Positions 3,800 to 38,700 of a DNA stretch of 64,000 nucleotides are shown here, piece by piece. How positions within the stretch are numbered: the stretch's first letter is position 1; every line of letters begins with the position of its first letter. A model generated the notes under the pieces. The model did no database searches and was not told the DNA's origin. It was given only the letters and a program-made list of their open reading frames with translations. This DNA is from Lunularia cruciata (lineage: Eukaryota > Streptophyta > Marchantiopsida > Lunulariales > Lunulariaceae), in the NCBI GenBank assembly GCA_948567375.1, contig OX419756.1:64184333-64248332 (forward strand), given 5' to 3'. The position numbers and the translations under genes were made by a program.

Positions 3800-3884
3800 T
3801 AGGCTAATTTGGTCTATTCACTATTTCGTTAACCTTGACTAAATTTGTCGCTAAACTCCATATTGTTACATATTCCCTTACCGC

Positions 3885-5304: not shown

Positions 5305-5649
5305 TTGGAAGAAAGGATCTTGTTGTATAGCTGATCAAAACTTGTTTTGGACCTTGGAGTCAATTGACACCGTTATAATTGCCATCGTGATAAGAAGAAG
5401 AGACTTCAAATCAGGTCGTTATGATAGAGCATCAAGGATGACATGGAATTGACCTGGTTTGTACTCAAGTTTGATGTAAAACAATTGGAGTTGCTCATCC
5501 AATCAATGATGTTGACTCTTCATGTGTTCCAAGTGTAAGGTCTACAACAATGGTTTGTAATCAATTTGCATGATCACTTGTTTCCCTAAGAGATAATGCC
5601 TCCATACCTTGGTGGCATACACCATTGCAAGTTGTTTCCAATCTCAAGC

Positions 5650-15016: not shown

Positions 15017-15712
15017 TGTGAGCCAACCTGTCTTTCAATCAGGATAAACCTTTGATGGCTATTATGGTAGTGCAACATGTACTAAGAAGGCCAAGAACCC
15101 CAACTCCATCATAACACTCCAAGATTCAAGACATTGCTCACTATAGAACTCAATGAGAGAGAGATAGTTGCAAATGAAAGGATGATGAGTACCTCCTCAC
15201 CCCTTGTTTATATACTTGTGAAATAATTACACACTAAAGTTACTATTTACTATAGTAACTCAAGTTACTAGACTAAAAGTCAAGTCAAGTCAAAAAGTAT
15301 AAAGGAATATCCATCCATATGGGCATATTCTACTAAGCATGTGATCTTATCCTAACCCAACCACTAAGTCAAGGATTCCTTCACATGGGCTATCCTTTGA
15401 CTATAGAAGAATCCAAAACAAAAAGGCTTGCGGGCCCAAGAGTTCTCAACTCTTTCCTCAAAGCCAAATACCTTGGAATAATATCAAGTCAACACACTAG
15501 AATCCAAAATAGTGGGGCTCATCTTTTCCACTTCCTCTAAAGTAAGGGTCCCCTCTATCTTAGCTATGACTAACTTTAGCTAATCATGACTAATATAGAA
15601 CATTCTTTTATCTTTATATAAATAATATCTCTCAAGTATTTGTAATACAAAGTTAAATATCATAATACCAAGCTAAATATCATAATACCACACCATGCAC
15701 AATGTGTGTTAT
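15017..15712 (-). repeat. D2: family-D solo LTR inside A2 integrase
   Basis: It is a full-length reverse-complement match to the D1 LTR, starting TGTGAGCC and ending GTGTTAT. Flanks are tgtgt (15012-15016) and agtgt (15713-15717), a 4-of-5 target duplication. A-old is uninterrupted at the matching point (about 4910-4925), which confirms an insertion. Solo LTRs normally arise by recombination between the two LTRs of a full element. Confidence 0.85.
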
Positions 15713-15717
15713 AGTGT

Positions 15718-17815: not shown

Positions 17816-18505
17816 TATGAGCTGGTTTGACTCTCACTCAGGATGAACCTCTGATGGCTACTATGGTAGCGCACCATGGACTAAGAAGGCCATGAACCCC
17901 AACTCCATCATACTCCTCCAAGGATAACACTCCAAGACTCAAGACATTGCTCACTAGAGAGCTCAAATGAGAGAGATAGTTGCAAATGAAAGGATGATGA
18001 GTACCCCCTCACCCCTTGTTTGTATACTTGTGAAATAGTTACGCACCAAAGTTACTAATTACCATAGTAGCTCAAGTTACTAGACTAAAAGTCAAGTAAA
18101 GTAAAAAAGTATAAAGAAATATCCATCCACATGGGCATATTCCACTAGCATGTGATCTTATCTTTACCCAACCACTAAGTCAAGGATTCCTTCACATGTG
18201 CTATCCTTGGACTATAGAAGACTCCAAAACAAAAAGGCTTGCGGGCCTAAGAGTTCTCAACTCTTTCCTCAAAGCCAAACACTTGGGAATAATACCAAGT
18301 CAACACACTAGAATCTAAAATAGTGGTGCTCATCTTTTCCACTTCCTCTAAAGTAAGGGTCCCCTCTATCTTAGCTATGACTAACTTTAGCTAATCATGA
18401 CTAATGTAGAACCATCCTTTATCTCTATATAAATATTATCTCTCAAGTACTTATAATACTAAGCTAAATATCATAATACCACACACATGCACAAATGGGT
18501 GTTAT
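17816..18505 (-). repeat. D3: family-D solo LTR inside A2
   Basis: A 690-bp reverse-complement match to the D1 LTR. A perfect 5-bp target duplication, aggac, lies at 17811-17815 and 18506-18510. The uninterrupted site is seen in A-old at about 7020, where the sequence runs straight into the protease end. Confidence 0.9.
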
Positions 18506-18510
18506 AGGAC

Positions 18511-18959
18511 TGACTATTTTTAGGTGTCTTACTCAAAGGTGGTAGACAACCTAATTGGAAATTCCTACCTTGGTGTTGTACTTGAATTTGTCGTCGGGTC
18601 CAATCAAATTGAACCTTATGTAGTTCAAGCCAAGGTAGTCCTAGAATGACATCATAGTGTAGAGATGCCACTACAAACCTCATACACTCCAAATACTCCT
18701 TCCCAATCTTGAAGGTAATAGGATGCAAGGTATAGAATGCAAAACACTTTCTACCATCCATCATCATCAATCTACTTCCAATTATTGGTTTGATAAGAAT
18801 ACTCAATTCCTTTGCTACTTGCATAGACATGTAATTCTTTAAACTTCTAGAATCAATCAAAATCCTACAACTCCAATTAGATATTTTACCTTGCAACTAA
18901 AGCAAACTTGCATCGGTTGAGCTTTCAATCCCATTAGAACTAATCAAGCTCCCAATAGG
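18511..18959 (-). pseudogene. A2 protease
   Basis: The minus-strand frame has RILIDSRSLKNYMSMQVAKE around the catalytic Asp (D-S-R where D-S/T-G is expected), then DGRKCFAFYT, and ends DVILGLPWLELHKVQFDW. It also supplies an unbroken reference for the A2 insertion point in A-old, near 18777. At 18959 it stops, where B1 begins. The gag-side continuation is at 30744, reversed. Confidence 0.85.
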
Positions 18960-19624
18960 TATAATACTCAGAGCTAGCCATATGATCTAGATGTGAAATT
19001 TGATTTGGTAACATCTGGAATGATGTTATACATGATGGTCAAAATAGATCAGATAAAAGTATCACCAAAAAGGTACTTCTATTAATAGGGCAGAAAACCA
19101 AAATAGATTTGGAAACCTTAAAACCAATAGCTAGACATATGATTTGAAGGTGAGAATTGGGATGTTACGAAGGTGAGAATTGGGTTAGTAACATCTAGAA
19201 GGATGTTACACAAGATGGACTGAATAGATCAGAAAGAGGTATGAATGGCTGGTATGAATGGCCAATGGATGAAAGGCTGGCCTTCCCTCCCCTTGCTTTG
19301 TCTCATCAAGAGCTTTCCAACGGTACATCACCCACGTGGTTTTGAGATTCCTACAGGAAGATTCCCTAAAAGATTCCTTCTGGTCAAAGCTTGTTTGACC
19401 AACCAGATAGGACCAGGACTGACATGCCACCCATCCAAGTAAGTAATCCAAGGGTGGAGCTTGCTGACATGTCACCTATCTATGTACCTAATCCTATGGT
19501 GGAGCTTCATTGGAGGAGATCCGGTTTGCCTATATAATAAAGAGAAGGTGCTCCTTTGGGGCATCGGAGTTTGAGTGTGAAAGTGTGTGTTTCTCTTCAG
19601 GTCTCCTATCCTTGGAGTATTACA
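18960..19624 (+). repeat. B1 5' LTR (665 bp)
   Basis: It begins TATAATAC (from TGTAATAC) and ends GTATTACA. It lacks roughly 100 bp in the middle that the other three B LTRs keep, with a short duplication (gaaggtgagaattggg) near 19150. A TATA tract (tatataataa) is at 19531-19540. Confidence 0.9.
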
Positions 19625-19625
19625 A

Positions 19626-19637
19626 TGGTATCAGAGC
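19626..19637 (+). other. B1 primer-binding site
   Basis: TGGTATCAGAGC is the exact complement of the plant initiator methionine tRNA 3' end, one base after the LTR. Confidence 0.95.
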
Positions 19638-20223
19638 AGGTGTTATCCAAGAGAGCGGATCACCCCTCTTGGAAGAACATGGGCTGCCGAGATTGAGTAA
19701 TTTTGAGGAGAGACATGCTGGTGTAATTGGTAGATTAGGAAGATAGAATGGATGCTTCGGGAGGACAATATCTAGGTGCCTTGCTTTCCATTCTTGAATC
19801 CATTCAACATCAAGATTATGTACATTCAGCACGAGCAAGTGAGAGTGTATTTAGTTTTTCACTTTGGAGCAGAGTTCATGGATATAGTAATGAATTTGCC
19901 AAACCCAGTGATTTTGCCTGTAGTGATTTACAATAGAAGTGTTATTTCTCCCTCGTGGGATTTGACAATTTACATTTTGTTGTGATGGATTTGAATGTCC
20001 CAAATCCTTTCTCTTTTAACAGTCAAGTAGAAATTTGTTATGTAGTGAGACCGAAAGTGATGTTTAGGGAATTTGTGGTCAGGAATTTCAATGAGGAATA
20101 TTACCAACGAGTGGTAGCTTTTGAGGTCCCAATGGTAGTTCCAATAGTTTGTGCGCCCTCTAGAGTGATCATATTAACTCTCTATTAAAGTTTAGGGTAT
20201 AGCAATCGAGTGTTACAAGAACC

Positions 20224-21060
20224 ATGGATCCGTAGTTGCAAGAGTTGGTGCAAGGAATGTAGGGGATGTTGAACAAATTTCAAGAGATTAAGATGACCAT
20301 GGAGGTGTTACAAAGTCAAGTGCAGACCCTCAAGAATGATCAAGCAATGCAAGAAGAAGAGCCGTCTCAAAATCCAATACCTGCAACTGAAGTACTTGGA
20401 GAGGCACCCGTGCCTACAGACCCTATCAATGATGAAGCCACATTACTACTTTGGATGAAGAAGACCTGCAACATCGAGCCTTACAAGGGGCAGCGTACAA
20501 TGGGAGTAGTAGAGAACTGGATCTCGAGAATGAATCAATATTTTTGGTTGTTCTCAATAGAGATCACCAAGCATGCTGCAGGCGTGTTTGCATGTGGGTA
20601 CTTGACCGATAAAGCCCTCACATGGTACAACGCTTGGGAACAATCCATGTTGGCCAAGAGAAGGGAGGTCAAATGGATAGCAATACAAGAAGGATTGCTG
20701 AAAAATTTCCAATCGGTGGATTTTGTGCAGATGGCCCGGATCCGACTATGGGGATTGAAACAAAAGAACAACATACAAGAGTATGTGGAGGCATTTCTGG
20801 ATCTACAAGTCACAATAACCAACATGAGTCCAGCAGAGGCTCTCAACAATTTCAAACAAGGGTTGAAGGAGCAGATTTGCCAAGAAATCATGGTACAAAA
20901 TCCTCGCATGATATTTGAAGCCATTGCTTGTGTGCAAAGAATAGCAGAAGCATTAGGTGGAGGTGAAGGAGTAGTTCCACCTCAACATTATCGGGCAGAA
21001 ATACCACCTATGGGTGGACCTGTACCAATGGAACTGGGCAACCTTTGGTTTCAAGACTGA
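20224..21060 (+). pseudogene. Gag of B1
   Basis: The ATG at 20224 is followed by in-frame stops at codons 4 and 13. The frame is then open from 20266 to 21060 (264 codons). The capsid pattern is clear: PYKGQRTMGVVENWISRMNQYF, LTDKALTWYNAWEQ, FVQMARIRLWGLKQ, then the alanine-rich end before PVPMELG. A zinc knuckle follows out of frame at about 21139-21190 (CYNCGCIGHISTNY, last Cys to Tyr). It would form the particle and bind RNA. Confidence 0.9.
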
Positions 21061-21378
21061 GTAGCATGACCACTTCAAGGAGAACGGGGACGGGTAGAAG
21101 AACGGAGAGATGGAGCCCCACGAGGAGAAGGAACTCAAGGGGAACAACGCTGTTGTTACAATTGTGGTTGTATTGGGCATATATCTACCAACTATCATGC
21201 TCAACTTCCCAAAGGCCCTCGACCTTCATATAAGCAATCTTTGAACAACATGGAGAGATACATTGAAGAGGAAGAGGTGGAAATCACTTCAAAAAATAGA
21301 GATTGCTAGTAAATGTACCTTGCAACCTTACTAGCTCAATAAGGACGCAGAAAAGCAAGGGAAGGAGGAAGACGAGAG

Positions 21379-21810
21379 CACAAAGGTACCGAAAGGCAAC
21401 CTCACAATTGATTGTAGTGAATGGGGTCCTAGAAGGCAATCAAGTGAGAGTGTTAATAGACCCAAGAGCCATAGAGAATTTCCTATCTCGCTCTATTGCA
21501 ATAAGATTGGGTATGAATCTAGAGAGAGATGAGAGTCAGGAAGTAGAGTTACCTAAAGGACAAACAGAGAGGATTGAATCATTACCCAAGTAGGTAACAC
21601 TCTCTGTAGGAAAATATCAAGAAGCAATTGAGTGGCAAGTCATACAATTAGCTCGTTATGATGCAATCTTAGGTATGCCATGGATGGAGCATTACAACCC
21701 TATGGTAGATTGGAGGAAGAAAGTAGTGAGAACCCACCAATGGTCAATCATTGGGATTAAAGAAAAATTACATAAGCAAGAATTGCCTCTCTATGTCATA
21801 GGGACAACAA
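21379..21810 (+). pseudogene. Protease of B1
   Basis: The frame has VRVLIDPRAIENFLSRSIAIRL. The catalytic Asp is present but the following Gly is Arg (B2 keeps Gly). A stop at about 21591 interrupts before AILGMPWMEHYNPMVDW, the conserved end of gypsy proteases. Confidence 0.85.
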
Positions 21811-21839
21811 CTATCTGTAAGACTGATAGGTGTTTCATG

Positions 21840-22548
21840 GATCTAATAAGAGAAGTCCAGAGTGCACAACTCAAGGGAAAAATTCTTGAGAAATTGAAGG
21901 ATGTTGTAAATGAGTTTCAAGATGTCTTTCTTGATGATCTACCCTCAAGATTACCACCAAAAAGGAGAGTAGATCATAAAATTGAGACACTCCCGGGGAA
22001 GACACCTCCTTGTAAGGCCCCATATTGGCTATCACCTCATGAGTTGGAGGAGTGCAAGAATCAAATTAAGGATATGCTACAGAAAGGGTTCATCCAACCC
22101 AACATATCACCATATGGGGCTCCAATCTTGTTTGTGAAGAAGAAAGACGGTACAATGCACATGTGCATTGTATTGGGGTCTCAATCAACAAACAGTGAAG
22201 AACAAATACCCCTTACCTCGCATGGATGATCTATTCAATCAACTTAATGGAGCAAGACACTTCACCAAACTAGATTTACAAAGCGGTTATAATCAAATCC
22301 GAATTGTAGAGGAGGATGTGTACAAGACTGCCTTTTGAACCAGGTATGGCCACTTTAAGTATCTTGTGATGCCTTTTGGTCTCACCAACACACCTACCAC
22401 TTTCATGAGTCTAATGAATGACATATTTCATCTATATTTGGATAAGTCTGTCATTGTCTTCCTAGATGACATCTTAGTATACAATAGCACGATGACGGAA
22501 CACAAACAACATCTATGAAATGTCCTCCAAATTCTAAGACAGAATTAA
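21840..22548 (+). pseudogene. Reverse transcriptase of B1
   Basis: It starts with FPDDLP-like and [18 protein letters not shown] motifs, then [13 protein letters not shown] one-base deletion near 22165 (relative to B2) shifts the frame. The palm continues with [13 protein letters not shown], a TGA at 22336-22338, [14 protein letters not shown], and the intact catalytic site [14 protein letters not shown]. Confidence 0.9.
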
Positions 22549-23400
22549 TTGTATGCCAAAATCTCAAAGTGTGAGTTTGGCAAGGCTAAAGCAGACTACT
22601 TGGGGCATAGAGTAAGTGCAGAGGGTATTCAAGTATTGATAGATAAAATAGAGGTCATCCAAAAATGGAGTGCCCCAGAAGATCAGACTCAACTCAAGAG
22701 TTTCTTGGATTTGACGGGATTCTATCGTCAATTTGTCAAGGACTTCTCCAAGGTTGCATAGCCTTTAACAACACTGCTTGGCAAAGGGAAGAAGTGGACA
22801 TGGGAAACCGCACAAGAGTTGGTCTTTCAAGAATTGAAAGTTGCCTTGCTATATGCACCAATCTTGAAGTGGTATGACCCAAAACGTCCAATCAAGTTGG
22901 CTACAGATGCATCAAGCATAGCAATCGGAGCAGTCCCAGTGGCAAGAGTGGCATGACGGATGGCATCCCATTGCATATTTCTCTCAAAATTTATTACCGG
23001 CAAAGTGCAACTACCACACCACATAACGAGAAGAGTTGGCCATCATTGGAGCAATCCTAGTAACAAGAGTGGCATGACGGATGGCATCCCATTGCATATT
23101 TCTCTCAAAATTTGTTACCGGCAAAGCACAATTACCACACCACAAAACAAGAAAAGTTGGCCATCGTCCTAGCAACAAAGCATTGGAAGCACTATCTGGG
23201 CAAGAAGGCATTTGTGGTAGAGATAGACCACAAACCCCTAGTCTACCTCAAGAAGAAGGATCTATCTCGTTGCCAGATTCGATGGGCAAAGTGGTGACAA
23301 CGCTTCAATATGACAATCACCTATGTTGAAGGTAAGAAGCAACTTGCAAATGCATTCACCCGCATGCCGATGGCAAACAACTTGGTGGTAAAGGTTCAAA
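22549..23400 (+). pseudogene. RNase H region of B1
   Basis: It reads YAKISKCEFGKAKADYLGHRVS, then the DLTGFYRQFVKDFSKVA connection and an RNase H domain with KHYLGKKAFVVEIDHKPLVYL. A 121-bp tandem duplication (22943-23184) and a stop near 22759 disrupt it. Confidence 0.85.
22943..23184. repeat. 121-bp tandem duplication in B1 RNase H
   Basis: The block starting CAAGAGTGGCATGACGGATG at 22943 is repeated at 23064. B2 has a single copy (about 33180-33290), so the duplication is private to B1 and frame-shifting. Confidence 0.9.
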
Positions 23401-23429
23401 TTAGCCCTAAATTCTAGCTAGAGATTCTG

Positions 23430-24480
23430 GCGGCTACAAAAACTGATCCACAGATTGTAGAAGAGCAATCATCCAAAGGCATCACCAGCACCCAAGGACT
23501 CACCTTTCGTGATGGCAGATTATGGATTCCAAATGTCCCAAAATTGCCCACCACCATTCTAGCGGAATGTTATGATTTGGCCATTGTAGGTCATGTTGGA
23601 GTGGATAAGACCTTGGATGCAGTCCAACGCCATTACTATTGGCCCAAGATGAGCAACGATGTGATGGACTATGTGCGCAATTGCTTACTTTGTCAACAGA
23701 ACAAAGCTTCTAATCAAGGTCCTGTAGGGCTCTTGCAACCTCTCCTCACTCCTACACAACGTTAGGAACAAGTGTGTATGGATCTTGTTTGTGAATTACC
23801 CAAGACCACATCAAGATTTGACTCTATTGTGGTCTTTGTGGACCGGCTCAGCAAAATGATTCATGTATGCCCTACCACCAAGGAGGTGACCGCTCCACAA
23901 CTTGCACAATTATACTTAGATGCAGTCTTCTCTCACCATGGCTTGTCTCGTGTACTCATCACCGATAGGGGTACTCAATTCATCAGTTTGTTTTGGTGCA
24001 CCCTCTTTGGCTTCTTCAAAACCAAGTTGGCCATGTCCACAACTTACCACCCACAAACAAATGGACAAACAAAGCGGGCTAATCACACTATTGAAGACAT
24101 GTTACGCGGCTTCACCTTAGAAGAGCAAGAGAGGTGGGACACCCTACTCCTGTTGGTGGAATTTGCTTACAACAATTTAGTGAATGCATCCACCCAGGTC
24201 ACTCCGTTCTTCCTCATGTATGGTGAGCATCTCTTCACACCTTCCAGCTTGATGAAGATCCATCCGGTGGCTACCAAGGTCAATGCAGTCAACACATTTG
24301 TTTCTAGAATCCAACAAGGGGTGGAGAGCGCTAAGTACAAATTACAGATTGCACAAAATTGCCAAAAGCAGTATGCTAATGCACACTATAGGCACATGGA
24401 GTTCAATGTTGGGGATGAGGTGTGGCTATCGACAACCAACCTCACATTAGTGGGACCTTGTAAGCTCAGACCTCGTTTTA
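23430..24480 (+). pseudogene. Integrase of B1, catalytic Glu lost
   Basis: The zinc-binding part (23544-23765) has VGHVGVDKTLDAVQRHYYWP then CLLCQQNK. A stop at about 23763 separates it from the core (from 23772). The core holds the first catalytic Asp in MDLVCELPKT, the second in ITDRGTQF, and then HPQTNGQTKRANHTIED, where the normally invariant Glu of the DDE triad is Lys. It would catalyse cDNA insertion; this copy could not. Confidence 0.9.
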
Positions 24481-24639
24481 TTGGGCCTTTCTCAATTCTC
24501 TGTCAAGTCTGTGTTGTGGCCTATCACCTTGAGCTACAACCACACATGAAGATCCATCCAGTGTTCCATGTTTCCCTACTATGCAGATATGCTCTCCAAT
24601 CAGGCTTGGGTCCTTCCACACAAGACATTTGACCTTGTC

Positions 24640-24854
24640 CAACACTCGTTGATGGCAACGAGGAATATGAAGTGGAGTGTATTTTCCAAAAATGCATGCA
24701 TGGTACTCGTCATCCACGGGTGGATTATCTTGTCCAATGGAAAGGTTACCCCCTCTATGAAGCAACTTGGGAACTTGCTGCCAATTTGACACATGCACCG
24801 GTGTTGGTGCAAGCATTTGAGCAACAGTTGCACAACAAGGACGTTGTGTCTTAA
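24640..24854 (+). pseudogene. Chromodomain of B1
   Basis: HPRVDYLVQWKGYPLYEATWE is the chromodomain core with its aromatic residues, followed by VLVQAFEQQLHNKD and the stop. It lies in a different frame from the integrase core owing to a frameshift near 24600. It marks family B as a chromovirus. Confidence 0.9.
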
Positions 24855-24867
24855 AAGGAGGGAGGTT
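24853..24867 (+). other. B1 polypurine tract
   Basis: AAAAGGAGGGAGGTT lies immediately before the 3' LTR, the expected plus-strand primer. Confidence 0.85.
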
Positions 24868-25624
24868 TGTAATACCAAAAGCTAGCCATATGATCTAGAT
24901 GTGAAATTTGGTTTGGTAACATCTGGAATGATGTTATACATGATGGTCAAAATAGATCAGATAGAAGTATCACCAAAAGGGTACTTCTACTAATAGGGCA
25001 AAAAACCAAAATAGATTTGAAAACCTTAGAACCAATAGCTAGACATATGATTTGAAGGTGAGAATTGGGTTGGTAACATCTAGAAGGATATTACACAAGA
25101 TGGATTGAATAGATCAGAAAGAGGTATCACCAAAAGGGGACTTCTACTAATAGAGTTGGAACCAAAATATGCGTGAAATCTTTGAAGGCAATTTTGGAGG
25201 CCTAAACGGATAAATTAGGCCATGAAAATGTACAAACCCCCCCCCCCCAACAGAGGTGAGGCTGGCATTCCCTCCCCCTTGCTTTTTCTCGTCGAGAGCT
25301 TTCCAATGGTACCTCACCTACGTGATCCTGAGATTCATACAAGAAGATTCCCTAAAAGATTCCTTTCAGTCAAAGCTTGTTTGACCAACCAGATAGGACC
25401 AGGACCAACATGTCACCCATCCAAGTAAGTAATCCAAGGGTAGAGCTTGCTGACATGTCACCTTACTATGTACCTAATCCTATGGTGGAGCTTCATTGAA
25501 GGAGATCCGCTTTACCTATATAATAAAGAGAAGGTGCTCCTTTGGGGCATCGGAGTTTGAGTGTGAAAGTGTGTGTTTCTCATGGTGTGTTTCTCTTCAG
25601 GTCTCCTATCCTTGGAACATGACA
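24868..25624 (+). repeat. B1 3' LTR (757 bp)
   Basis: It starts TGTAATAC; its degenerate end is ACATGACA. It has a long C run near 25239-25252 and a duplicated CATGGTGTGTTTCTC segment near 25580, both shared with the B2 5' LTR at 36581-37336. Confidence 0.9.
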
Positions 25625-26650
25625 ATATGGCCAACTTGCCTTGATTTGTTGTCACATTTGCAATGAAAATCACTATGCAAACCAATGCCCCAATAATGTT
25701 GTACATTTTGCTCCAGAGTGCATATTAAAACACAATGTCTAGACCTCTAGAACTTCATCACTTAGGCATATGGAGTGCTTGCACAAAATGAATACTCAAA
25801 TAACATTGGCTCCAACAAGAATGTGCATTTCATTGCCATTGAAAAAGTCCCTCCAAAAGAAAAAATGCATCAATTATGGATAGTATCCCACCAAAAGCCA
25901 ATGTCTTCCTCACAATGCAATCCCATACTCATGCAATACCTGATCCAACCAGTACTTTTGGCTCAAAAGACTACATTTTTGTGTACTCCAACAATAAGCT
26001 CATATGGAAGGAGACCTTGTAACTTGTCCTCAAAATGTATTGCACTATGATCCTTATTTTTAATACCATGGCAAAGCAACCCCCTACTTCCTTCACACAT
26101 GACTATGATATCCTTGCTAACACTCAAGCCAACATCTCTCAAACAACTTTGCAAGGTATCTCCTACCAAATGCAAGAAGCCTTGTGTAAAAGGAACAACC
26201 CAAAATGCATTTCAAGGAGCTAAAAGTTAAGGAAATCCTCATGCAAACACTTGTCCCATAGACTTCTCATTATCTTCACCTCCAAGATGCTTTTCAAATT
26301 TGCTCACACATTGCCTTTGGCAGACTAGCACCATGTCAGCCCCGTGTTGTATACTTAGGTTCACAACCCTAACATTCTAGTAACAATTGAGAGCATTAAC
26401 ATCCCAAATTGGCAAATTGATTTGGGGTCCTTAGTAAACATCATGACCAAAGGAGTTATGCAATTGGATGGAAAGGCATGATCAAAACTTCCACCCTTCT
26501 TTAAATGGCTAATGGAAGACAACACTTTTGGTAGAGATTTTAACAAAAGTACCTACATTAATTGGTGAACAAACCCTCTTGGTTGACTACTTAATCATGG
26601 ATACACCTCCTTCAACCTAATTTCTACTCTTATTATGAACTCCTCGGTTG
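25625..26650 (+). pseudogene. Family C: gag end and protease, inside the inverted segment
   Basis: Directly after B1 the frame reads LICCHICNENHYANQC, a zinc knuckle with one residue fewer than usual before His. From about 26373 a retropepsin follows: WQIDLGSLVNIMTKGVMQL (D-L-G-S in place of D-S-G-S), with a degenerate LLG end near 26640. The zinc-knuckle frame is the one in which family-C gag stops at 37337 beyond B2. No RT was found downstream; the element appears truncated. Confidence 0.7.
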
Positions 26651-27940
26651 GTAGACAAAGATGTTATCACCTCCTAGAAAATAGGTAAGTTGACTTTTGG
26701 AAGGAAATAAAATCACAAAGTACTCTTATGTATCATGCAAAGAACACTTCCAACTTTGATCATGAGGAGTGAGCCAAGCTTTACCATTGACGCATGGAAA
26801 CTGCACATGTGGTAATAATGAAGAGATCACAAATACCATTGCTAATTGTTTGTTCATAATTGCTAAAGAGATGAGCAAGTATGTCATAGCCAAGGATACA
26901 AAGATGATAAACTAATCTAGCTCCTTCTTTTGCAACCTTCACCAAATCACAAGATGGTTTCAACCAACACATTCCTACCACTTCCTCCACATTGTACTAG
27001 GATTTGCCTATCCGGTGGATGTCACTTGTGGTGCACACATTTTTTGTTTTTTTCAAAATAGAGAAGAAGAAGTGTATAGAGAAGTCGGATTGCGCCTGTA
27101 TGGCCGAAGAAGGTGAAGAAAAGAGTCTTCGGGATGAAACCCAAAGTAAAGTGACTTCGGGTCATAAGGCAAAGTACTCGGAAATGCCCTATCAGCATAC
27201 AACCCAAAGTAAGGAATCTTCGTATTGGGGGGAGCTCAACCCGAGGCAAAGACAGTCTAACAACCTTTCATCAGGGTGAGAAATTCAAGAAGGGACCATT
27301 CAAAACCGGCAGCCCATACACGTGAAGTACGATTGACAGTGATAGGCACATGCAAGAGGTGTGATTTCTTGGTAGAAACTCAAATTGAAGAGAGACAAAG
27401 AAAGCAAGACTCTATAAAATTGAACTAACAACGAAGCAATGTTGAGCAATTTTCCTTTTCCATTGAGAAGTCATCCTATAGGTGATCGTGGGAAGGGAAA
27501 TAGAGTTGAAGATGCGCTAGTGTGTAGAGGAGAAGTTGAGAGAGTGAAACCGAGAGACATTGAGAAAGTAGGAGAGATGGGAGGAGGAAAGAAGAAATCC
27601 AATTCGCAGTGAGGAATCATGCAATTTGGAGGCTAGACGTGATTGCAAGAATCAAAGTCTTGAGCCGACTTTGGATTTCGTTCTTGGCATGGAACTGGAA
27701 TGTCAGTTTTCCAAGTTTCATGACTAAGATTATTGAGAGTAAGTGTCTCGATGGCCTCGAGGAAGAGGGGAAGAGAGGAAATCTGGCTTGCTAGACAGAG
27801 TCGGATTGGAGATTAGTGCTCGGGAGAGAAGTAGGTACAGAGCAGGGTGCCACATTCTTGGGTAAGGGAGAAATAGCAAAAGAGACTCAAGAAGTGAGAG
27901 ATGCTTTCTATTCGAAGAGAACAAAGAATGGGTATAAGGT
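26651..27940. other. Unassigned DNA between family C and family A parts
   Basis: 26651-27000 may be degraded family-C sequence. 27000-27940 is richer in GC and purines and matches none of the four LTR families. It occupies the place where the 5' LTR of A-old and the rest of the C LTR would be expected. Short frames only. Confidence 0.4.
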
Positions 27941-29055
27941 TGAGTAGTAGCCATGGTGGCAATACTAGATGTTATCATTGCTATGCAATAACAAATTGAG
28001 CACCTTACTTGATTGTTGGATGAACGAGACCAACAATGACAAGAACACATAGAGAGTACTAGTTCAAGATGGAGAAGATCAAGTCCAATTTCCAAAACCT
28101 AAGGTGTATGAAGGCAAGAATCTTTTGGACACAATGGAGAATTTTGTGTTTGACTACAAATGTTACTTTGAAGCTACCAATCTTCAAGATGAACAAAAAT
28201 AGAGTCTCTTGGCTTCAAGCCAATAAGATGGTGTGGCAAAACTTTGGTGGCAATTCTGAGTGGAGCAAGTTGAACAACATATTGTTGCACCAATCTTGAT
28301 ATGGGCAAAATTCAAGGATGCAATACTTGGCTGATTTCAAACTATGAATGCCACCCAAGCCGCACAAGATAAATTGGCAGAGTTGAAGCAAATTGGCTCT
28401 ATAAGGAGCTACATCATGCAATTACAAAACATCATTATGCTGATTCCAAATATACAAGAAGGTGACGTTTTGGATCGATTTGTGAGGTGCTTGAAGTCAC
28501 GAACCAAATTAGAGGTGACCATGCATGAACCACAAAACATGGAAGAAGCCATACAATTGGCGGAGGGCTTTGATTCCTTGGTTGTGACAACTTAGTCTCG
28601 ACCTTGACCTACACAAAGCCTACCAATACACTACGCACGGATGGAGGAGCCAACACCAATGGAGATTGATGCTATCCAATGGAGACCACTTGGTACAATG
28701 GATAGAGAAAGATTACAAAAAAATGGTGGTTTTTTTTATTGTCACCAAGTTGGACATTGCATTGATGAATGTCCACTTAGGAATGGACAACCTCAACAAG
28801 TTGCCCAAATTAAGTTTGTGGAGTGGAAGGATCAAGGAAACAAGGAATCCCAATAGGGGATTTTGAGTTGCATATTAGGAGCTTGATTAGTTCCAATATG
28901 ATTGAAGGCTCAACATATGCAAGTTTGCTTCACTTGCAAGGTACAATATCTAATCAGGGTTGTAGGATTTTGGTTGATTCAGATAATTGCATGTCTATGC
29001 AAGTAGTAAAGGAATTGGATATTCTTATCAAGCCAGTAATTGGAAGTAGATTGAT
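27941..29055 (+). pseudogene. A-old: gag and first part of protease (5' half)
   Basis: The gag pieces include KLAELKQIGSIRSYIMQLQ and VLDRFVRCLKSRTKLEV, and a knuckle FFYCHQVGHCIDEC whose first Cys has become Phe. The protease start RILVDSDNCMSMQVVKELDI follows. It ends at ttgat (29051-29055), against the A2 5' LTR. Its continuation is the protease end at 7347, on the other strand. Confidence 0.85.
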
Positions 29056-29213
29056 TGTAACAATATGGAGTTTAGCGACGTAGTTAGTAAGGTTAACAAA
29101 GTAGAGAATAAGCCAATTAGCCCAAAATATTTTAGAAGCATCCAGGAAGCTTCTTGGGAAGTTTCTCGAGTAGCTTAACTTGCACCCCAAGTAGGTAGCT
29201 TCTAGAAGAAAGT

Positions 29214-29226
29214 TTCTAGAAGCTTC
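29214..29226. promoter_or_regulatory. Three-unit heat-shock element in A2 5' LTR
   Basis: TTCTAGAAGCTTC matches TTCnnGAAnnTTC exactly. Two-unit TTCTAGAA sites are nearby at 29200-29207 and 29260-29267. Confidence 0.75.
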
Positions 29227-29327
29227 CAACTAGCTTAGCTTGCACGCCAAATAAGCAACTTCTAGAAGGAGGCTTCTTGAGAATCTTCTTGGTTAATTTG
29301 GCTTGCACTCTAAGGAAGTAGCTCAAG

Positions 29328-29347
29328 GAAGCTTCTTGAGAAGCTTC
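29328..29347. promoter_or_regulatory. Gapped heat-shock element next to the TATA box
   Basis: GAAGCTTCTTGAGAAGCTTC is two GAAnnTTC pairs four bases apart, ending 22 bp before the TATA box. Confidence 0.65.
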
Positions 29348-29368
29348 TCAAGAGCCTTGTATGCTACT

Positions 29369-29376
29369 TATAAATA
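29369..29376 (+). promoter_or_regulatory. TATA box of the A2 5' LTR
   Basis: TATAAATA lies in the expected place, about 110 bp before the LTR end. Confidence 0.75.
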
Positions 29377-29479
29377 CCAAAGCCCAAACTCATGCTAGGC
29401 ATTTGGAGTTTTCACATATTCCAATATCCTAATGTGAGTTTCCATTCTCTTATTTCTCTTTGGGCTCTATCTTTTATAT

Positions 29480-29491
29480 TGGTATCAGAGC
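29480..29491 (+). other. A2 primer-binding site
   Basis: TGGTATCAGAGC, an exact initiator-Met tRNA complement, one base after the LTR. Confidence 0.95.
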
Positions 29492-29734
29492 AAGAATGGG
29501 ATGGAAATTATGGACCACCAAATCCACTTCCATCAAACCATTGGGATTTTTGTATCCAAGTACTACCCAAGTATTGTTTCACACAACTCATCACCTCACA
29601 CTTTGGACAAGATCTTCTGCATATGATCACCATATTTGAAGAACCCTTGGTGCTTCCGATTATAACTTATGGAGAACGGTGGATGTGTTGATTCTATGTG
29701 TTAATAAATTAGACAGATTAGGGGTGGCATGATA

Positions 29735-30744
29735 GAGTAGCAACCATGGTGACAATGCTTGATATTATCCTTGGTATGCAGCAACAAATCAAGCACCTTA
29801 CTTGATTGTTGGATGAACAAGATCTTTGACGACAAGAACACGTAGAGAGAGTACTAGTTCAAGAAGGAGAAGATCAAATCTGTTTCCCTAAACCCAAGGT
29901 ATTTGAAAGCAAGAATGTCCCAGGTACAGTGGAGAATTTTATGTTTGATGGTGAATGTTATTTTGAAGCTACCAATCTGCAAAACAAGCAAAAATAGATT
30001 CTCTTGGCTTCTAGCCAATTGGATGGAGTAGCAAAGCTATAGTGGAGATTTCGAGTGGAGTGAGCTAAATGACAAATTGTTGCACCAATCTTGATGTGTG
30101 CAAAATTCAAGAGTGCAATAATTAGTTGGTTGCAAGCTATAAATGCCACACAAGCTGCACAAGATAGGTTGGCAAAGTTGAAATAGATTGGCTCTGTAAG
30201 AAGTTACATCACACAATTCCAAAACACCATAATGCAAATTCTAGATATATTAGAAGGTGAAGCTCTAGATTGATTTGTTACATCACACAATTCCAAAACA
30301 CCATAATGAAAATTCTAGATATATTGGAAGGTGAAGCTCTAGATTGATTTGTGAGGAGCTTGAAGTCAAGAACCAGATAAGAGGTAACCATGCAAGAGCC
30401 ACAACAATTGGAGGAAGCCATACAATTGGCCAAAATTTTTGATTCCTTGGTTGCAACAACTTGGTCTCAACCTTGACCTCCATAGAACCTACCAATACAC
30501 TACACACAGGTGGAGGAGCCGGCACTAATGGAGATTGATGTCATTCAATGGAGACCACTTGGCATTGTAGATAGAGAAAATCTATGACAAAATGGTGGTT
30601 GTTTTTATTGTCACCAATTGGGACATTGTCTTGCTAAATGTACACTCAAGAATGAGCGACCTAGACAAGTTGCTTAGATGGAGTTTGTGGAGCAAAATGA
30701 TCAAGAAAATGAGGAATCTCAGTAGGAGATTTTGAGCTGCCTAT
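29735..30744 (+). pseudogene. A2 gag
   Basis: It is homologous along its length to A-old gag (27941-28860). It keeps an intact-looking zinc knuckle, CFYCHQLGHCLAKC, near 30600. Stops are frequent, and a 74-bp tandem duplication (30204-30351) shifts the frame. At 30744 it stops at B2. The sequence that should follow in the element, the protease, is at 18959 and reads on the other strand. Confidence 0.85.
30204..30351. repeat. 74-bp tandem duplication in A2 gag
   Basis: The block TTACATCACACAATTCCAAA starts at 30204 and again at 30278. A-old gag has one copy. Confidence 0.9.
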
Positions 30745-31491
30745 TGTAATACTCCAAGGATAGGAGACCTGAAGAGAAATACACATGAGAAACATACACT
30801 TTCACACTCAAACATCAATGCCCCAAAGGAGCACCTTCTCTTTATTATATAGGTAAAGCGGATCTCCTTCAATGAAGCTCCACCATAGGATTAGGTACAT
30901 AGATAGGTGACATGTCAGAAAGCTCCACCCTTGGATTACTTACTTGGATGGATGACATGTCGGTCTTGGTCCTATCTGGTTGGTCAAACAAGCTTTGACC
31001 GGAGGGAATCTTCTTGTAGGAATCTCAAGATCACATGGGTGAGGTACCGTTGGAAAGCTCTTGATGAGACAAAGCAAGTGGGGAGAGAAGACCAACCTTT
31101 CAAATGTTGGGAGGGGGAGAATTTGCACATTTTCAAGACCTAATTCATCCGTTTAGGCCTCCAAAATTGCCTTCAAAGATTTCAGGCATATTTTGGTTCC
31201 AACTCTATTAGTAGAAGTCCCCTTTTGGTGATACCTCTTTCTGATCTATTCAATCCATCTTGTGTAACATCCTTCTAGATGTTACCAACCTAATTCTCAC
31301 CTTCAAATCATATATCTAGCTATTGGTTCCAAGGTTTTCAAATCTATTTTGGTTTTTTGCCCTATTAGTAGAAGTACCCTTTTGGGGATACTTCTATCTG
31401 ATCTATTTTGACCCATCATGTATAACATCATTCCAGATATTACCAAACCAATTTTCACATCTAGATCATATGGCTAGCTCTTGGTATTACA
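30745..31491 (-). repeat. B2 3' LTR (747 bp)
   Basis: Plus-strand ends are TGTAATAC and GTATTACA, a perfect 8-bp inverted pair. It lacks the long homopolymer seen in the B1 3' LTR and B2 5' LTR. Confidence 0.9.
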
Positions 31492-31508
31492 AACCTCCCT
31501 CCTTTTAA
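31492..31508 (-). other. B2 polypurine tract
   Basis: Plus-strand AACCTCCCTCCTTTTAA is the complement of the purine run preceding the 3' LTR, matching the B1 tract. Confidence 0.85.
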
Positions 31509-31783
31509 GACACAACGTCCTTGTTGTGCAATTGTTGCTCAAATGCTTGCACCAACACCGGTGCATGTGTCAAATTGATAGCGGGTTCCCAAGTTGCTTC
31601 ATAGAGGGGGTAGCCTTTCCACTGGACAAGATAATCCACCCGTGGATGACGAGTACCATTTTTGGAGAATACACTCCACTTCATATTCCTCGTTGCCATC
31701 AACGAGTGTCGGACAAGGTCGAATGTCTTGTGTGGAATGACCCAAGTCTGATTAGTGAGCATATCTGCATAGTAGGGAAACAT
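31505..31783 (-). pseudogene. Chromodomain of B2
   Basis: The frame has HPRVDYLVQWKGYPLYEATWE and VLVQAFEQQLHNKDVVS before the stop. It overlaps the end of the integrase frame, offset by a frameshift. A short deletion relative to B1 lies just before the domain. Confidence 0.9.
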
Positions 31784-32920
31784 GGAACACTGGATGGATC
31801 TTCATGTGTGGTGGTAGCTCAAGGTGATAGGCCACAATGCTGACTCGACAAAGAATTGAGAAAGGCCCAATAAAACAAGGTCTGAGCTTACGAGGTCCCA
31901 CTAATGTGGTTGTCGATAGCCACACCTGATCCCCAACATTGAACTCCATGTGCCTATGGTGTGCATCAGCATTTGGCTTTTGGCGATTTTGTGCAATCTG
32001 TAATTTGTGCTTAGCGCTCTCCACCCCTTGTTGGATTCTAGAAACAAATGTGTTGACTACATCAACCTTGGTAGCCACCGGATGGATCTTCATCAAGCTA
32101 GAAGATGTGAAGGGATGCTCACCATACATGAGGAAGAATGGAGTGACCTGAGTGGATGCATTCACTAAATTGTTGTAAGCCAATTCCACCAATAGGAGTA
32201 GGGTGTCCCACCTCTCTTGCTCTTCTAAGGTGAAGCCGCGTAACATGTCTTTAATAGTGCGATTAGCCCGCTCTGTTTGTCCATCTGTTTGTAGGTGGTA
32301 AGTTGTGGACATGGCCAACTTGGTTTTGAAGAAACCAAAGAAGGTGCACCAAAACAAATTGGTGAATTGAGTACCCCTATTGGTGATGAGTACACGAGAC
32401 AAGCCATGGTGAGAGAAGACTGCATCTAAGTATAATTGAGCAAGTTGTGGAGCGGTCACCTCCTTGGTGGTAGGGCGTACATGAATCATTTTTCTAAGCC
32501 GGTTCACAAAGACCACAATGGAGTCAAATCCTGATGTGGTCTTGGGTAATTCATAGACGAGATCCATACACACTTGTTCCTAACATTATGTAGGAGTGGA
32601 GAGAGGTTGTAAGAGCCCTACATGAGCTTGATTAGAAGCTTTGTTCTGTTGACAAAGTAAGCAACTGTGCACATAGTCCATCACATTGTTGCTCATCTTG
32701 GGCCAATAGTAATGGCACTGGATTGCATCTAAGGTCTTGTCCACTCCAAAATGACATGCAATGCCGAATCATGACATTCCGCTAGAATGGTGGTGTGCAA
32801 TTCTAGGATATTTGGAATCCACAATGTGCCATCATGAAAGGTGAGTCCTTGGGTGCTGGTGATGCCTTTGGATGATTGCCCTTCTACAATTTGTGGATCA
32901 GTTTTTGTAGCCGCCAAAAT
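31752..32920 (-). pseudogene. Integrase of B2
   Basis: The core frame (32573-31752, 273 codons) is open. It has MDLVYELPKT (first Asp), ITNRGTQF (the second catalytic Asp has become Asn) and QTDGQTERANRT (Glu kept). The N-terminal zinc-binding part (from about 32917) is in other frames, with CQQNKAS readable. Predicted inactive because of the Asn. Confidence 0.9.
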
Positions 32921-32999
32921 CTCTAGCCAAAATTTAGGGTTAATCTAAACCTCTACCACCAAGTTGTTTGCCATTGGCATGCGTGTGAATGCATCTGCA

Positions 33000-34335
33000 A
33001 GTTGCTTCTTACCTTCAACGTAGGTGATTATCATGTTGAAGTGTTGTTGCCACTATGCCCATCAAATCTGGCAACGAGATAGATCCTTCTGCATCTCAAG
33101 GTAGAGTAGGGTTTGTGGTCTATCTCTACTACAAATGCCTTCTCGCCCAAATAGTGCTTCCAATGCTTGGTTACCAGGATGATGGCCAACTCTTCTTGTT
33201 CTGTGGTGTAGTAGTTGTGCTCTGCCGGTAACAAATTTTGAGAGAAATATGCAATGGGATGCCATCCATCATGCCACTCTTGTTGTAGGACTGATTAGAT
33301 TGTTACGCCTTATGCATCTATAGCCAACTTGATTGGATGTTTTGGGTCATACCACTTCAAGATTGGTGCATGTAGCAAGGCGGCTTTCAATTCTTGAAAG
33401 GCCAAATCTTGTGTGGTTCCCCATGTCCACTTCTTCCCCTTGCCAAGTAGTGATGTTAAAGGCTGTGCAACCTTGGAGAAGTCCTTGATAAATCGATGAT
33501 AGAATCCCGTCAAACCCAAGAAGCTCTTGAGTTGAGTCTGATCTTCTGGGGTAATCCATTTTTAGATGACCTCTATTTTATTTGTCAATACTTGAATACC
33601 CTCTGCACTTACTCTATGCCACAATTAGTCTACTTCAGACTTGCAAAACTCACACTTTGAGATTTTGGCATACAATCAATTCTGTCTTAGAATCTGGAGG
33701 ACTTCTTGTAGATGTTGTTTGTGTTCTGTCATCGTGCTATTGTATATTAAGTTTTCATCCAGGAAGACAATGACAGACTTATCCAAATATGGACAAAATA
33801 TGTCATTCATTAGACTCATGAAAGTGGCAGGTGTGTTGGTGAGACCAAAAGGCATCACGAGATACTTGAAGTGGCCATACCTGGTTTAAAAGGCAGTCTT
33901 GTACACATTCTCCTCTCCAATTCAGATTTGATTGTAACCACTCCGCAAATCTAGTTAGGTGAAGTGTCTTGCTCCATTGAATTGATTGAATAGATCATCC
34001 ATGCAAGGTAAGGGGTATTTTTTCTTCACTATTTGCTGATTGAGACCTCGATAATCAATGCACATGCACATTGTACCATCTTTCTTCTTCACAAACAAGA
34101 CCGGAGCCACATAGGGTGATATGCTGGGTTGGATGAACCCTTTCTGCAGCATATCCTCAATTTGATTCTTGCACTCCTCCAACTCATGAGGTGATAGGCG
34201 ATATGGGGCCTTACAGGGAGGTGTCTTCCACAAGAAAGTCTCAATTTTATGATCTACTCTCCTTTTTGGTGGTAATCTTGAGGGTAGATCATCAGGAAAG
34301 ACACCTTGAAACTCATTGACGACATCCTTCAATCT
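33000..34335 (-). pseudogene. RT and RNase H of B2
   Basis: 34332-33955 carries [38 protein letters not shown]. 33858-33676 has [12 protein letters not shown] and [14 protein letters not shown], where the second catalytic Asp is Glu. The connection DLSKVAQPLTSLLGKGKKWTW-like part is at 33519-33310, and RNase H (KHWKHYLGEKAFVVEIDHKP) at about 33180-33100. Frameshifts divide the parts. Confidence 0.9.
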
Positions 34336-34449
34336 CTCTAGAATTTTCCCTCAAGTTGTGCACTATGGACTTCTCTTATTAGACCCATGAAACACTTATC
34401 AGTCTTACAGATAGTTGTTGTCCCTATGACATAGAGAGGCAATTCTTGC

Positions 34450-34923
34450 CTATGTGATTTTTTCTTTAACCCCAATGATTGACCATTGGTGGGTTCTCAC
34501 TACTTTCTTCCCCCAATCTACCATAGGGTTGTAATGCTCCATCCATGGCATACCTAAGATTGCATCATAACGAGCTAATTGTATCACTCGCCACTCAATT
34601 GCTTCTTGATATTTTCCTACAGAGAGTGTTACCCACTTGGGTAATGATTCAATCCTCTTTGTTTGTCCGTTAGGTAACTCTACTTCTTCACTCTCATCTC
34701 TCTCTAGATCCATTTTTAATCTTATTGCAATAGAGCAAGATAGGAAATTCTTTGTGGCTCCCGGATCTATTAACACTCTCACTTGATTGCCTTCTAGGAC
34801 TCCATTCACTACAATCAATTGTGAGGTTGCCTTTTGGTACCTTTGTGTGCTCGTCTTCTTCCTTCCCTCGCTTTTTTGCTTCCTTATTGAGCCAATAAGA
34901 CCGCGAGGTACATTTACTGGCAA
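34450..34923 (-). pseudogene. Protease of B2
   Basis: An open frame of 157 codons has VRVLIDPGATKNFLSCSIAI (catalytic Asp with Gly retained) and ends with AILGMPWMEHYNPMVDW. It is better preserved than in B1. Confidence 0.9.
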
Positions 34924-34979
34924 TCTTTGTTTTCCGAAGTGATTTCTACCTCCTCTTCTTCAATGCGTCTCTCCATGTT

Positions 34980-35998
34980 GTTCAAAGATCACTTGTATGA
35001 AGGTCGAGGGCCTTTGGGAAGTCGAGCACGACAGTTGGTAGATATATGCCCAATACAACCACAATTGTAACAACGGCGTTGTTCTCCTCGAGTACCTTCT
35101 CCTCGTGGGACTCTATCTCTCCGTTCTTCAACCTGTCCCCGTTCTCCTTGAAGCATTCGTGCTCCTCGGTCTCAAAACCAAAGGTTGCCCAGTTCCATCG
35201 GTACTGGTCCACCCATGGGTGGTCTGCCCGATAATATTGAGGTGGAACTACTTCTTCACCTCCACCTAATGCTCTTGCTATTCTTTGCGCACAAGCAATG
35301 GCTTCAAATATTGTGCAAGGATTTTGTACCATGACTTCTTGGCGAACCCGCTCCTTCAACCCTCATTTGAATTTGTCAAGAGCCTCTGCTGGACTCATGT
35401 CGGTTATTGCGACTTGTAGATCCAGAAATGCCTCTACATACTCTTGTATGTTGTTCTTTTGTTTCAATCCCCATAGTCGGATCCGGGCCATCTGCACAGA
35501 ATCCATTGATTGGAAATTCTTTAGCAATCCTTCTTGCATTGCTGTCCATATGACCTCCCTTCTCTTGGACAACATGGATCATTCCCAAGCGTTGTACCAT
35601 GTGAGGGCTTTATTAGTCAAGTACCCACATGCAAACATGCCTACAGCATGCTTGGTGATCTTTTTTGAGAACAAACAAAAATATTGATTCATTCTCAAGA
35701 TCCAGTTCTCCACTACTCCCATTGTACGCTGCCCCTTGTAAGGCTCAATGTTGCAGGTCTTCTTCATCTAGAGTAGTAATGTGGCTTCATCATTGATAGG
35801 GTTTGTAGGCACGGGTGCCTCTCCAAGTACTTTAGTCGTAGGTATTGGATTTTGAGACGGCTCTTCTTCTTGCATTGCTTGATCATTCCTGAGGGTCTGC
35901 ACTTGACTTTGTAACGCCTCCATGGTCATCTTAATCTCTCAAAATTTGTTCAACATCCCCTCCATTCCTTGCACCAACTCCTGCAACTGCAGATCCAT
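34980..35998 (-). pseudogene. Gag of B2
   Basis: The ATG at 35998-35996 reads into a TGA after 19 codons, at a site where B1 has Gln. At the positions where B1 has its first stops, B2 has sense codons. Capsid motifs follow in several frames (VVENWILRMNQYF, RIRLWGLKQKNNIQEYV). The zinc-knuckle region near 35040-35085 keeps its Cys and His codons. Confidence 0.85.
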
Positions 35999-36567
35999 GG
36001 TTCCTGTAACACTTGATTGCTATACCCTTAACTTCAATAGAGAGTTAATATGATCATTTTGGAGGGCGCACAAACTATTGGAATTACCATTGGGACCTCA
36101 AAAGCTACCACTCGCTGGTAATATTCCTCACCAAAATTCTTGACCACAAAATCTCTTAACATCACTTTCGGTCTCACTACATAAAAAATTTCTACTTGAG
36201 TGTTAAAAGGGAAAGGATTTGGGACATTCAAATCAATCACAACAAAATGGTAATTGTCAAATCCCACTCTTTATCATAAATCACTACAGGCAAAATCACA
36301 AGGTTTGGCGAATTCATTACTGTATCCATGAACTCTGCTCCGAAATGAAAACCAAATACACTATCACTTGCTTACGCTGAATGTACATAATCTTGATGTT
36401 GAATGGATTCAAGAATGGAAAGCGAGGCACTAGATATTGTCCTCTCGGACCATCCATTCTATCCTCCTAATCTATCAATTACACCAGAATGTCTCTCCTC
36501 AAAATTACTCAGTCTTAGTAGCCCATGTTCTTCCAAGAGGGGTGGTCCGCTCTCTTGGACAACACCT

Positions 36568-36579
36568 GCTCTTATACCA
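36568..36579 (-). other. B2 primer-binding site, one mismatch
   Basis: The reverse complement reads TGGTATAAGAGC, one base different from the initiator-Met site. Confidence 0.85.
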
Positions 36580-36580
36580 T

Positions 36581-37336
36581 TGTAATGCTCCAAGGATAGG
36601 AGACCTGAAGAGAAACACACCATGAGAAACACACACTTTCACACTCAAACTCCGATGCCCCAAAAGAGCCTCCTCTTTATTATATAGGTAAAGCGGATCT
36701 CCTCCAATGAAGCTCCACCATAAGATTAGGTACATAGATAGGTGATATGTCCGCAAGCTCCACCCTTGGATTACTTACTTGGATAGGTGACATGTTGGTC
36801 TTGGTCCTATCTGGTTGGTCAAACAAGCTTTGACCAGAGGGAATCTTTTAAGGAATCTTCCTGTAGGAATCTCAGGATCACGTGGGTGAGGTACCGTTGG
36901 AAAGCTCTTGATGAGACAAAGCAAGGGGGGAGAAGACCAGCCTTTCCATTGTTGAGGAGGGGGGGGGTTTGCACATTTTCAAGGCCTAATTCATCCGTTT
37001 AGGCCTCCAAAATTGCCTTCAAAGATTTCAGGCATATTTCGGTTCCAACTCTATTAGTAGAGGTCCCCTTTTGGTGATACCTCTTTCTGATCTATTCAAT
37101 CCATCTTGTGTAACATCCTTCCAGATGCTACCAACCCAATTCTCACCTTCAAATCATATGTCTAGCTATTGGTTCTAAGGTTTTCAAATCTATTTTGGTT
37201 TTTTGCCCTATTAGTAGAAGTACCCTTTTGGTGATACTTCTATCTGATCTATTTTGACCATCATGTATAACATCATTCCAGATGTTACAAAACCAAATTT
37301 CACATCTAGATCATATGGCTAGCTCTTTGTATTACA
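36581..37336 (-). repeat. B2 5' LTR (756 bp)
   Basis: Plus-strand ends are TGTAATGC and GTATTACA. It has the long G run (36958-36967) corresponding to the C run of the B1 3' LTR, and the same CATGGTGTGTTTCTC segment. Confidence 0.9.
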
Positions 37337-38700
37337 CATATTCTCATCTATTTCATCCTCTTCATTGGAAGGGTGGATCCCGTAAGTGTTGGTTGAAGGA
37401 GTTTTGTGGCAAGATAGTATCTATTGCATGTGTTCTCTCTTCAAAAGGTTTGTGGCATCTATGCACTGTTTTTCAATTTACCACTATGTGCCCATACTTT
37501 CCACAATGGATACAAAAGTTTGGAATGTCAAGGGTAGCATATTGGGTATTAGTGTCCTCCCTCTTGGGCATAGTTTACAAGAGATTTTGCCCCTAGCAGC
37601 AATGTTAACCAAATGTCTCTCTTGGGATTGTTGTGTTAAGTGAAGAGTTTGAAGACATTCCAACTTGATAAGGATATCTTCCATTTTAGTAGTTGTTGTT
37701 GTCGGAACCAATGTAGCTATGGGAGCATGTAGTACCAAAGGTGTTATATGCACTATTGTAGGAGGTGCTATGGATATTGATTGCAATACCACATATGGGC
37801 ATGGTGTGGTTGCAAAAGTTCTCCCATAAAAGTAGTTAGATTTTGAAAATCCTTGAGTGATAGCATATAGGTTATGCATTACACTACTCTTGAAGCCAAG
37901 TATAATAGAGCATGGATATTGTAAGGCCATGTCCCATTTTTTTGAGCCCAATAGTATGCTTTTTTGAATGCTTGGGCTAGGGTTGTAGCTTTGTTGTAGA
38001 TTAGCAACTTCTAAATATCCTCAAGTAGAGCATCTTTAAACCAATTGAGTGCAGTTGTAGGATCTAGAACCAATGTTATCATTGAAGATATATGTTGGAA
38101 CCTTTTAATAAATGTTTGCATGGTTTCATCATGTCCTCTACAAAGTCAGTTTATTTTTTCCTTAAGTTATTCTTGTTGTTGATGTGAGATGTATTCCTGT
38201 TATCCTTTTGCTTGTATCAATGCATAGCTTGTTCTTGTGGTAGGGTTAAGGCCACTTAACCAATGTTGTGTGATGCCAATAAAACATTGGCCAATGTGTC
38301 ATGCCATGGCAACATCATCCAAGATGTTTTGTGTTATGCAAAAAATTTCAAATATTTGGACAAACAACTTGAAATCTTCTTGTCCTATAAATTCTAGGCC
38401 ATATGCAATTATTTCTTTCTTCGGCTATGGAAGCTATTGTAATTAGGGTAGCATGGACCATAGGTGTTGTAGGAGTGTATTCCATTGTAGGGTGTGAAGC
38501 TGATGTAGATGGTTGTCCTTGGGCAGAAGTACTTGCCATCAATGGGAATGTTACTTGGTTTGGAAGTGATGCTTTCTTTGCATTTAATTGTTTGTCTATG
38601 GATGTAGGGGTATTATCTCCTCCAAGTTTAAAAATATCTTACTAGTGAGAGTGTGAGGTAATGCTTCCTCCAAACTAAAAAACACGATGGCTTTGTAGGG
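37337..38700 (-). pseudogene. Family C gag
   Basis: Reading leftward there is a gag of a third gypsy type: a low-complexity N-terminus (STSAQGQPSTSASHPTMEYT), a capsid-like part in broken frames (ALNWFKDALLEDI, AQAFKKAYYWAQK) and a zinc knuckle CIHCGKYGHIVVN whose last Cys codon is a TGA. The frame continues to 37337, where B2 inserted. The next gag part, with a second knuckle, is at 25625 on the other strand. Confidence 0.7.

Follow-up and report, generated by a model that had tools for sequence, protein, structure and literature searches.

Why should two copies of one long terminal repeat (LTR) retrotransposon stand close together with flanks that mismatch within each copy and match between the copies, when insertion of such an element normally creates matching target duplications? 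This question is raised by a locus of Lunularia cruciata (assembly GCA_948567375.1, contig OX419756.1, positions 64,184,333 to 64,248,332), which we analysed as one window of 64,000 nucleotides and to which all positions given here refer. The first copy, B1, occupies 18960..25624 on the plus strand, and the second copy of the same element, B2, lies in the opposite orientation at 30745..37336 on the minus strand. On the plus strand, B1 is flanked by ATAGG on its left (18955..18959) and by ATATG on its right (25625..25629), and B2 is flanked by CCTAT, the reverse complement of ATAGG, on its left (30740..30744) and by CATAT, the reverse complement of ATATG, on its right (37337..37341). Read in element orientation, the flanks are ATAGG/ATATG for B1 and ATATG/ATAGG for B2. 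A preliminary description of the window had pointed out this exchange, and all four pentamers were found at these positions. The 5,120-bp segment between B1 and B2 (25625..30744) is inverted, and recombination between the two copies, presumably homologous, is by far the best explanation of how the inversion was made.

The exchanged flanks were evaluated against other copies of the same family, family B, in this single assembly. Each repeat search scored its best 40 candidates, so that the family copies seen are a sample. Target duplications of 5 bp are present at other copies of the family, and among 32 complete family-B LTRs within the fetched loci, identical 5-bp flanks were found in 15 of 16 solo LTRs and in both of the full elements that could be assessed, namely L039 and L003+L065, the latter taken from place, strand and motifs as the ends of one element of ~14 kb. 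The solo count comprises 15 LTRs labelled as solo by script, 14 of which match (L049 does not), and L062, which a simple motif rule had labelled as a 3' LTR and which was counted as solo because its flanks are identical. Mismatched flanks are thus unusual in the family and, since matching duplications are the usual product of insertion, the present order at the locus is the derived one. From the window composition, the probability of a match at all five bases in both exchanged pairs was calculated to be ~2 × 10^-6, a value that is too favourable because the two duplications differ at one of the five bases and ATAGG recurs.

ATAGG is the target duplication of insertion 1, which lies in an element of a further family, family A. 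The gag half of the interrupted element, A-new (29735..30744, plus strand), is cut at this site next to B2, and its protease half (18474..18959, minus strand), with an aspartyl protease match in 18474-18896 (RVP_2, above the Pfam cut-off), is cut at the same site next to B1. The preliminary description had recognised an uninterrupted counterpart in A-old, a family-A gag-protease stretch within the inverted segment (28410..29055, plus strand; B insertion site at 28871-28875), and this was confirmed by an alignment that runs without a gap over the re-joined 30744/18959 junction. The re-joined site was also continuous in all 20 fetched genomic copies, one of which reaches no more than 30 bases into the protease side. 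These were 20 of the first 22 among 39 other places listed when the genome was searched with the gag half, for which 40 of 8548 first-look candidates were scored; two were skipped, with a match ending 7 bases before the site. At 28871-28875, A-old reads CATAT where A-new has CCTAT, and this pentamer equals the duplication of the other insertion, which we take as a coincidence.

ATATG is the target duplication of insertion 2, which lies in a family-C element. A family-C gag fragment on the plus strand (25625..26400), with its second zinc knuckle from 25647, continues the reverse complement of the sequence from 37337 onward, and the corresponding fragment on the minus strand (37337..38336), whose first zinc knuckle runs from 37514 towards lower positions, is cut at the family-C site. 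After re-joining, with one duplication counted, the two knuckles are 195 bases apart and therefore in one frame, in agreement with the earlier observation that the gag resumes across 37337/25625 in the same frame; a Pfam scan of the piece 37484-38020 gave no match. A genome search with 25625-26225 led to 29 fetched loci besides the window, and 24 of them span the re-joined site, representing 23 separate places because L030 and L031 are one copy; some bases near the site are missing in L027 and L034. As for the non-spanning loci, L023 matches both sides without the stretch around the site, and the match of L022, L025, L035 and L037 is limited to the 25625 side. As regards further copies of the present junctions, which the preliminary description had said would speak against an inversion, the junction of the family-A gag with B2 was found in 0 of the 20 fetched family-A copies and that of B1 with family C in 0 of the 29 fetched family-C loci; these are the two junctions that were tested, the protease-B1 and C-B2 junctions being outside the test.

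Taken together, the exchanged duplications and the continuity of both host sites elsewhere show that the 5.1-kb segment is inverted. They also support the proposal that the inversion was produced by recombination of two inverted copies, the ancestral sites being read from paralogous copies in the same genome. In the course of events that we propose, one element (E1) would have inserted in a family-A element with the duplication ATAGG, and a closely related Ty3-type chromodomain element (E2) would have inserted ~5.1 kb away in a family-C element, in the opposite orientation and with the duplication ATATG. E1 and E2 would then have recombined on the same chromosome with resolution as a crossover, which would have flipped the intervening segment, so that each element ended up with one copy of ATAGG and one of ATATG. 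The only simple event that swaps the duplications and at the same time inverts what lies between the elements is a reciprocal exchange of two inverted copies. Because the flip runs between the crossover points, the flipped DNA would include, in addition to the 5.1 kb, the element parts inside those points, up to ~18.4 kb. We put the probability of this whole explanation (two insertions, intrachromosomal recombination, crossover and 5.1-kb inversion) at about 0.9.

The LTRs of B1 (5' LTR, 18960..19624, plus strand, 665 bp, with private deletions; 3' LTR, 24868..25624, plus strand, 757 bp) and of B2 (5' LTR, 36581..37336, minus strand, 756 bp; 3' LTR, 30745..31491, minus strand, 747 bp) were compared with each other and with 32 more LTRs from the genome. 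In the four LTRs alone, the informative sites split into 4 that pair within elements, 4 that pair in the way predicted by the inversion and 3 in the third way, and this shared-site test was set aside as uninformative on the crossover. The C/G run and the CATGGTGTG segment, which had been described as specific to the B1 3' LTR and the B2 5' LTR, are also found, slightly changed, in the B2 3' LTR, and they were rejected as markers because the B1 5' LTR has lost both by deletion and the other three have kept them. In the IQ-TREE tree under HKY+G, the two LTRs of B2 paired (97), the B1 3' LTR joined them (99) and the B1 5' LTR was placed outside; under GTR+F+G4, for which the bootstrap had not settled, the support was 97/85 for the B2 pair and 93/91 for the joining of the B1 3' LTR. 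As a yardstick, the LTRs of L039 clustered at 95 and 89/86, and those of L003 and L065 at 98 and 99/98, under the respective models. The divergence was 6.1% between the B1 3' and B2 5' LTRs and 7.0% between the B1 3' and B2 3' LTRs, and that within elements was 5.55% in L039 and 5.53% in B2. Nine alleles, each in <35% of the other LTRs, are common to the B1 3' LTR and both LTRs of B2 and not shared by the B1 5' LTR; three of them are located within a deletion of the latter and one occurs in none of the 32 other LTRs. At a single site near the LTR end, the B1 5' LTR agrees with the B2 3' LTR, and the B1 3' LTR with the B2 5' LTR.

A regional affinity was also observed in the internal sequence. 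B1 and B2 form one group in the last internal stretch, element coordinates 4757-5845 (92/94; 31492..32580 on the minus strand in B2), and not at 757-2756 or 2757-4756, where a B1-B2 clade was nevertheless not rejected by the approximately unbiased (AU) test (p = 0.468 and 0.326, respectively). Both the internal value of 92/94 and the LTR value of 93/91 lie under the level that the tool marks with a star. The net branch shared by B1 and B2 at 4757-5845 was 0.0123, the second of 45 pairs after L002/L043b, which is one copy fetched twice, and that at 757-4757 was 0.001, the fourth of 21. The B1-B2 divergence has a change point at B2 coordinate 4845, a strength of change reached by 7 of 1000 shuffles, which by itself carries little weight because the comparisons B1-L039, B2-L039 and L046-L039 change there too.

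The two duplications, ATAGG and ATATG, differ by one base, and ATAGG is found at two other family-B insertions, which calls for caution. Several points weigh against the proposed recombination between B1 and B2. The LTRs of B2 pair with each other (97/85), which is not the clean exchange expected of one crossover in the middle of the element, and the predicted pairing of the B1 5' LTR with the B2 3' LTR is absent from the trees, although the AU test does not reject it (p = 0.308), just as it does not reject a pairing of the B1 5' and 3' LTRs (p = 0.437). Trees that force the B1 3' LTR together with the B2 5' LTR or with the B2 3' LTR were slightly better than the free search. Because the AU tests that were run reject no alternative, the crossover point is not pinned down. 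The lower B1-B2 divergence past ~4.8 kb is partly common to the comparisons of L039 with B1 and with B2, and the alleles confined to B1 and B2, compared among eight family-B copies of uneven coverage, give no signal because their number, 14, is within the range of 1 to 18 in the 27 other pairs.

The fuller LTR and internal data fit the earlier suggestion that gene conversion may have occurred in addition to the inversion. B1 looks chimeric, with a 3' LTR that groups with the LTRs of B2, whose own two LTRs pair with each other, and this pattern gives a hint of a crossover accompanied by a conversion tract across the 3' ends, the last internal stretch of B2 being the candidate tract. It is possible, but on balance doubtful, that repair soon after insertion replaced the 3' LTR of the present B1 and the final ~1 kb of internal sequence before it with sequence of E2, making B1 a chimera. 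The LTR and internal pattern and the single site at the LTR end fit a repair in which E2 served as the template for the 3' end of E1, and we tentatively consider that a double-strand break in E1 near the 3' end may have been repaired from E2 with a tract of ~1.8 kb and a crossover at the outer edge of the LTR. Against such a tract, five sites join the B2 5' LTR to the B2 3' LTR without the B1 3' LTR, and a single tract leaves these unexplained.

Among the alternatives to recombination, the one that survives best is an assembly error, in which the 5.1-kb segment would have been placed backwards between long inverted repeats and the true genome would have matched duplications. Segments between inverted repeats are classically misassembled in this way, which would yield the same flanks, and the longest exact match between B1 and B2, 160 bp, is enough to mislead short reads. 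However, the window contains no N and lies in a contig of 76.6 Mb, in an assembly of 566 Mb in 74 contigs, which suggests that long reads were used, and reads of a few kb should be placed uniquely because B1 and B2 differ at ~9% of sites. Nor does a misjoin predict the B1-B2 affinity confined to the 3' ends with a later divergence of 5-7%, although this affinity is only moderately supported. We regard an assembly error as unlikely. A real inversion might also have come from replicative template switching from one element to the other, which would produce these flanks and might in addition leave a copied tract, but it requires two coordinated switches without loss or duplication, for which nothing seen calls, and it is considered very improbable. 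That the elements were inserted in place and lost matching duplications by point mutation, which would draw on the one-base difference between the duplications and the recurrence of ATAGG noted above, can practically be dismissed, since it requires that an identical substitution arose at both elements on opposite sides, gives no reason for the position of both exactly at a boundary between families A and C while the A halves and the C halves each fit together across them, and is at odds with the C-C continuity in 24 of 29 loci and the A-A continuity in 20 of 20 copies.

Judged by their sequence, B1 and B2 are Ty3-type chromodomain LTR elements (chromoviruses). The order of Pfam matches in B1 was Retrotrans_gag, rve with SH3_Tf2-1, and Chromo; in the two pieces of B2 that were scanned, SH3_Tf2-1 was above the cut-off and the integrase core below it. 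No Pfam match to a reverse transcriptase was obtained in the one piece scanned per element (21594-22226 in B1 and 33958-34350 in B2), and a plasmid collection gave no matches to 21900-24400 of B1. A primer-binding motif, which presumably fits tRNA-Met, follows the 5' LTR of B1 at 19626, with a variant at 36568 in B2. The reading frames of B1 are broken by stops, and both elements are degenerate, because no open stretch exceeds 288 codons in B1 or 275 in B2. Their identity, 90.7 and 91.8% across two long aligned stretches, is comparable to that of other family members with B1 and B2. The pol region of B1 contains a tandem duplication of 121 bp (22924-23165, 90% alike), and the B LTR contains an internal repeat of 123 bp (24874-24996 and 25031-25153, ~83% alike). 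Elsewhere in the genome, the B copies L050 (C12:34052050-34060900) and L051 (C12:33999500-34008120) are inverted ~45 kb apart, with the same breaks and near-equal identities to B1 and B2, and this pair resembles a recent segmental duplication in inverted orientation or a duplicate in the assembly.

Other repeats are present in the window. A further family has three LTR-like copies, with ends set by eye, at ~15017-15713, 17816-18506 and 9007-9694; two of them, in direct orientation, split the pol region of A-new, and the one at 9.0-9.7 kb is inverted and has mismatched flanks of its own. A1 (3.4-8.6 kb) has a 1.2-kb repeat at both ends and seemingly lacks gag. The stretch 29056-29491 matches this repeat, followed by the gag of A-new, and is probably a truncated 5' LTR of A-new because of this match and the primer-binding motif at 29480 directly before gag.

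Recombination between LTR retrotransposons leaves elements with unmatched duplications, in plants, among yeast Ty elements and in human HERV-K. As in those cases, the flanks of B1 and B2 are mismatched because parts of two insertions are joined, but such cases usually concern one mismatched element, whereas both reciprocal products are present here. The mechanism is known, and B1/B2 is a new example of it. The closest case met in our literature search, which covered little subscription literature, was the inversion 2z3 of Drosophila buzzatii, and no LTR-element inversion with exchanged duplications was met, although we do not claim its absence from print. Ectopic recombination of two Galileo transposons, both of them chimeric, generated 2z3 (PMC2775673); in that study, sequence was also obtained from the non-inverted chromosome, and the switch was located within 141 bp. 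Like 2z3, the present inverted segment is bounded by two oppositely oriented copies whose target-site duplications are exchanged, a signature on which that study also relies. Unlike 2z3, it involves LTR retrotransposons, its ancestral state comes from paralogous copies, and its switch point is not located.

If the tract reading is true, the exchange would be nearly as old as the insertions, and an ancient repair tract would still be readable from LTR alleles. Should the two LTRs of B1 be of different descent, the divergence between the LTRs of such an element would be an unsafe basis for its age; the REANNOTATE paper (PMC2672092) states this hazard in general terms. Because both reciprocal products and the ancestral sites can be read here, small inversions between LTR elements are recognisable without a second genome.

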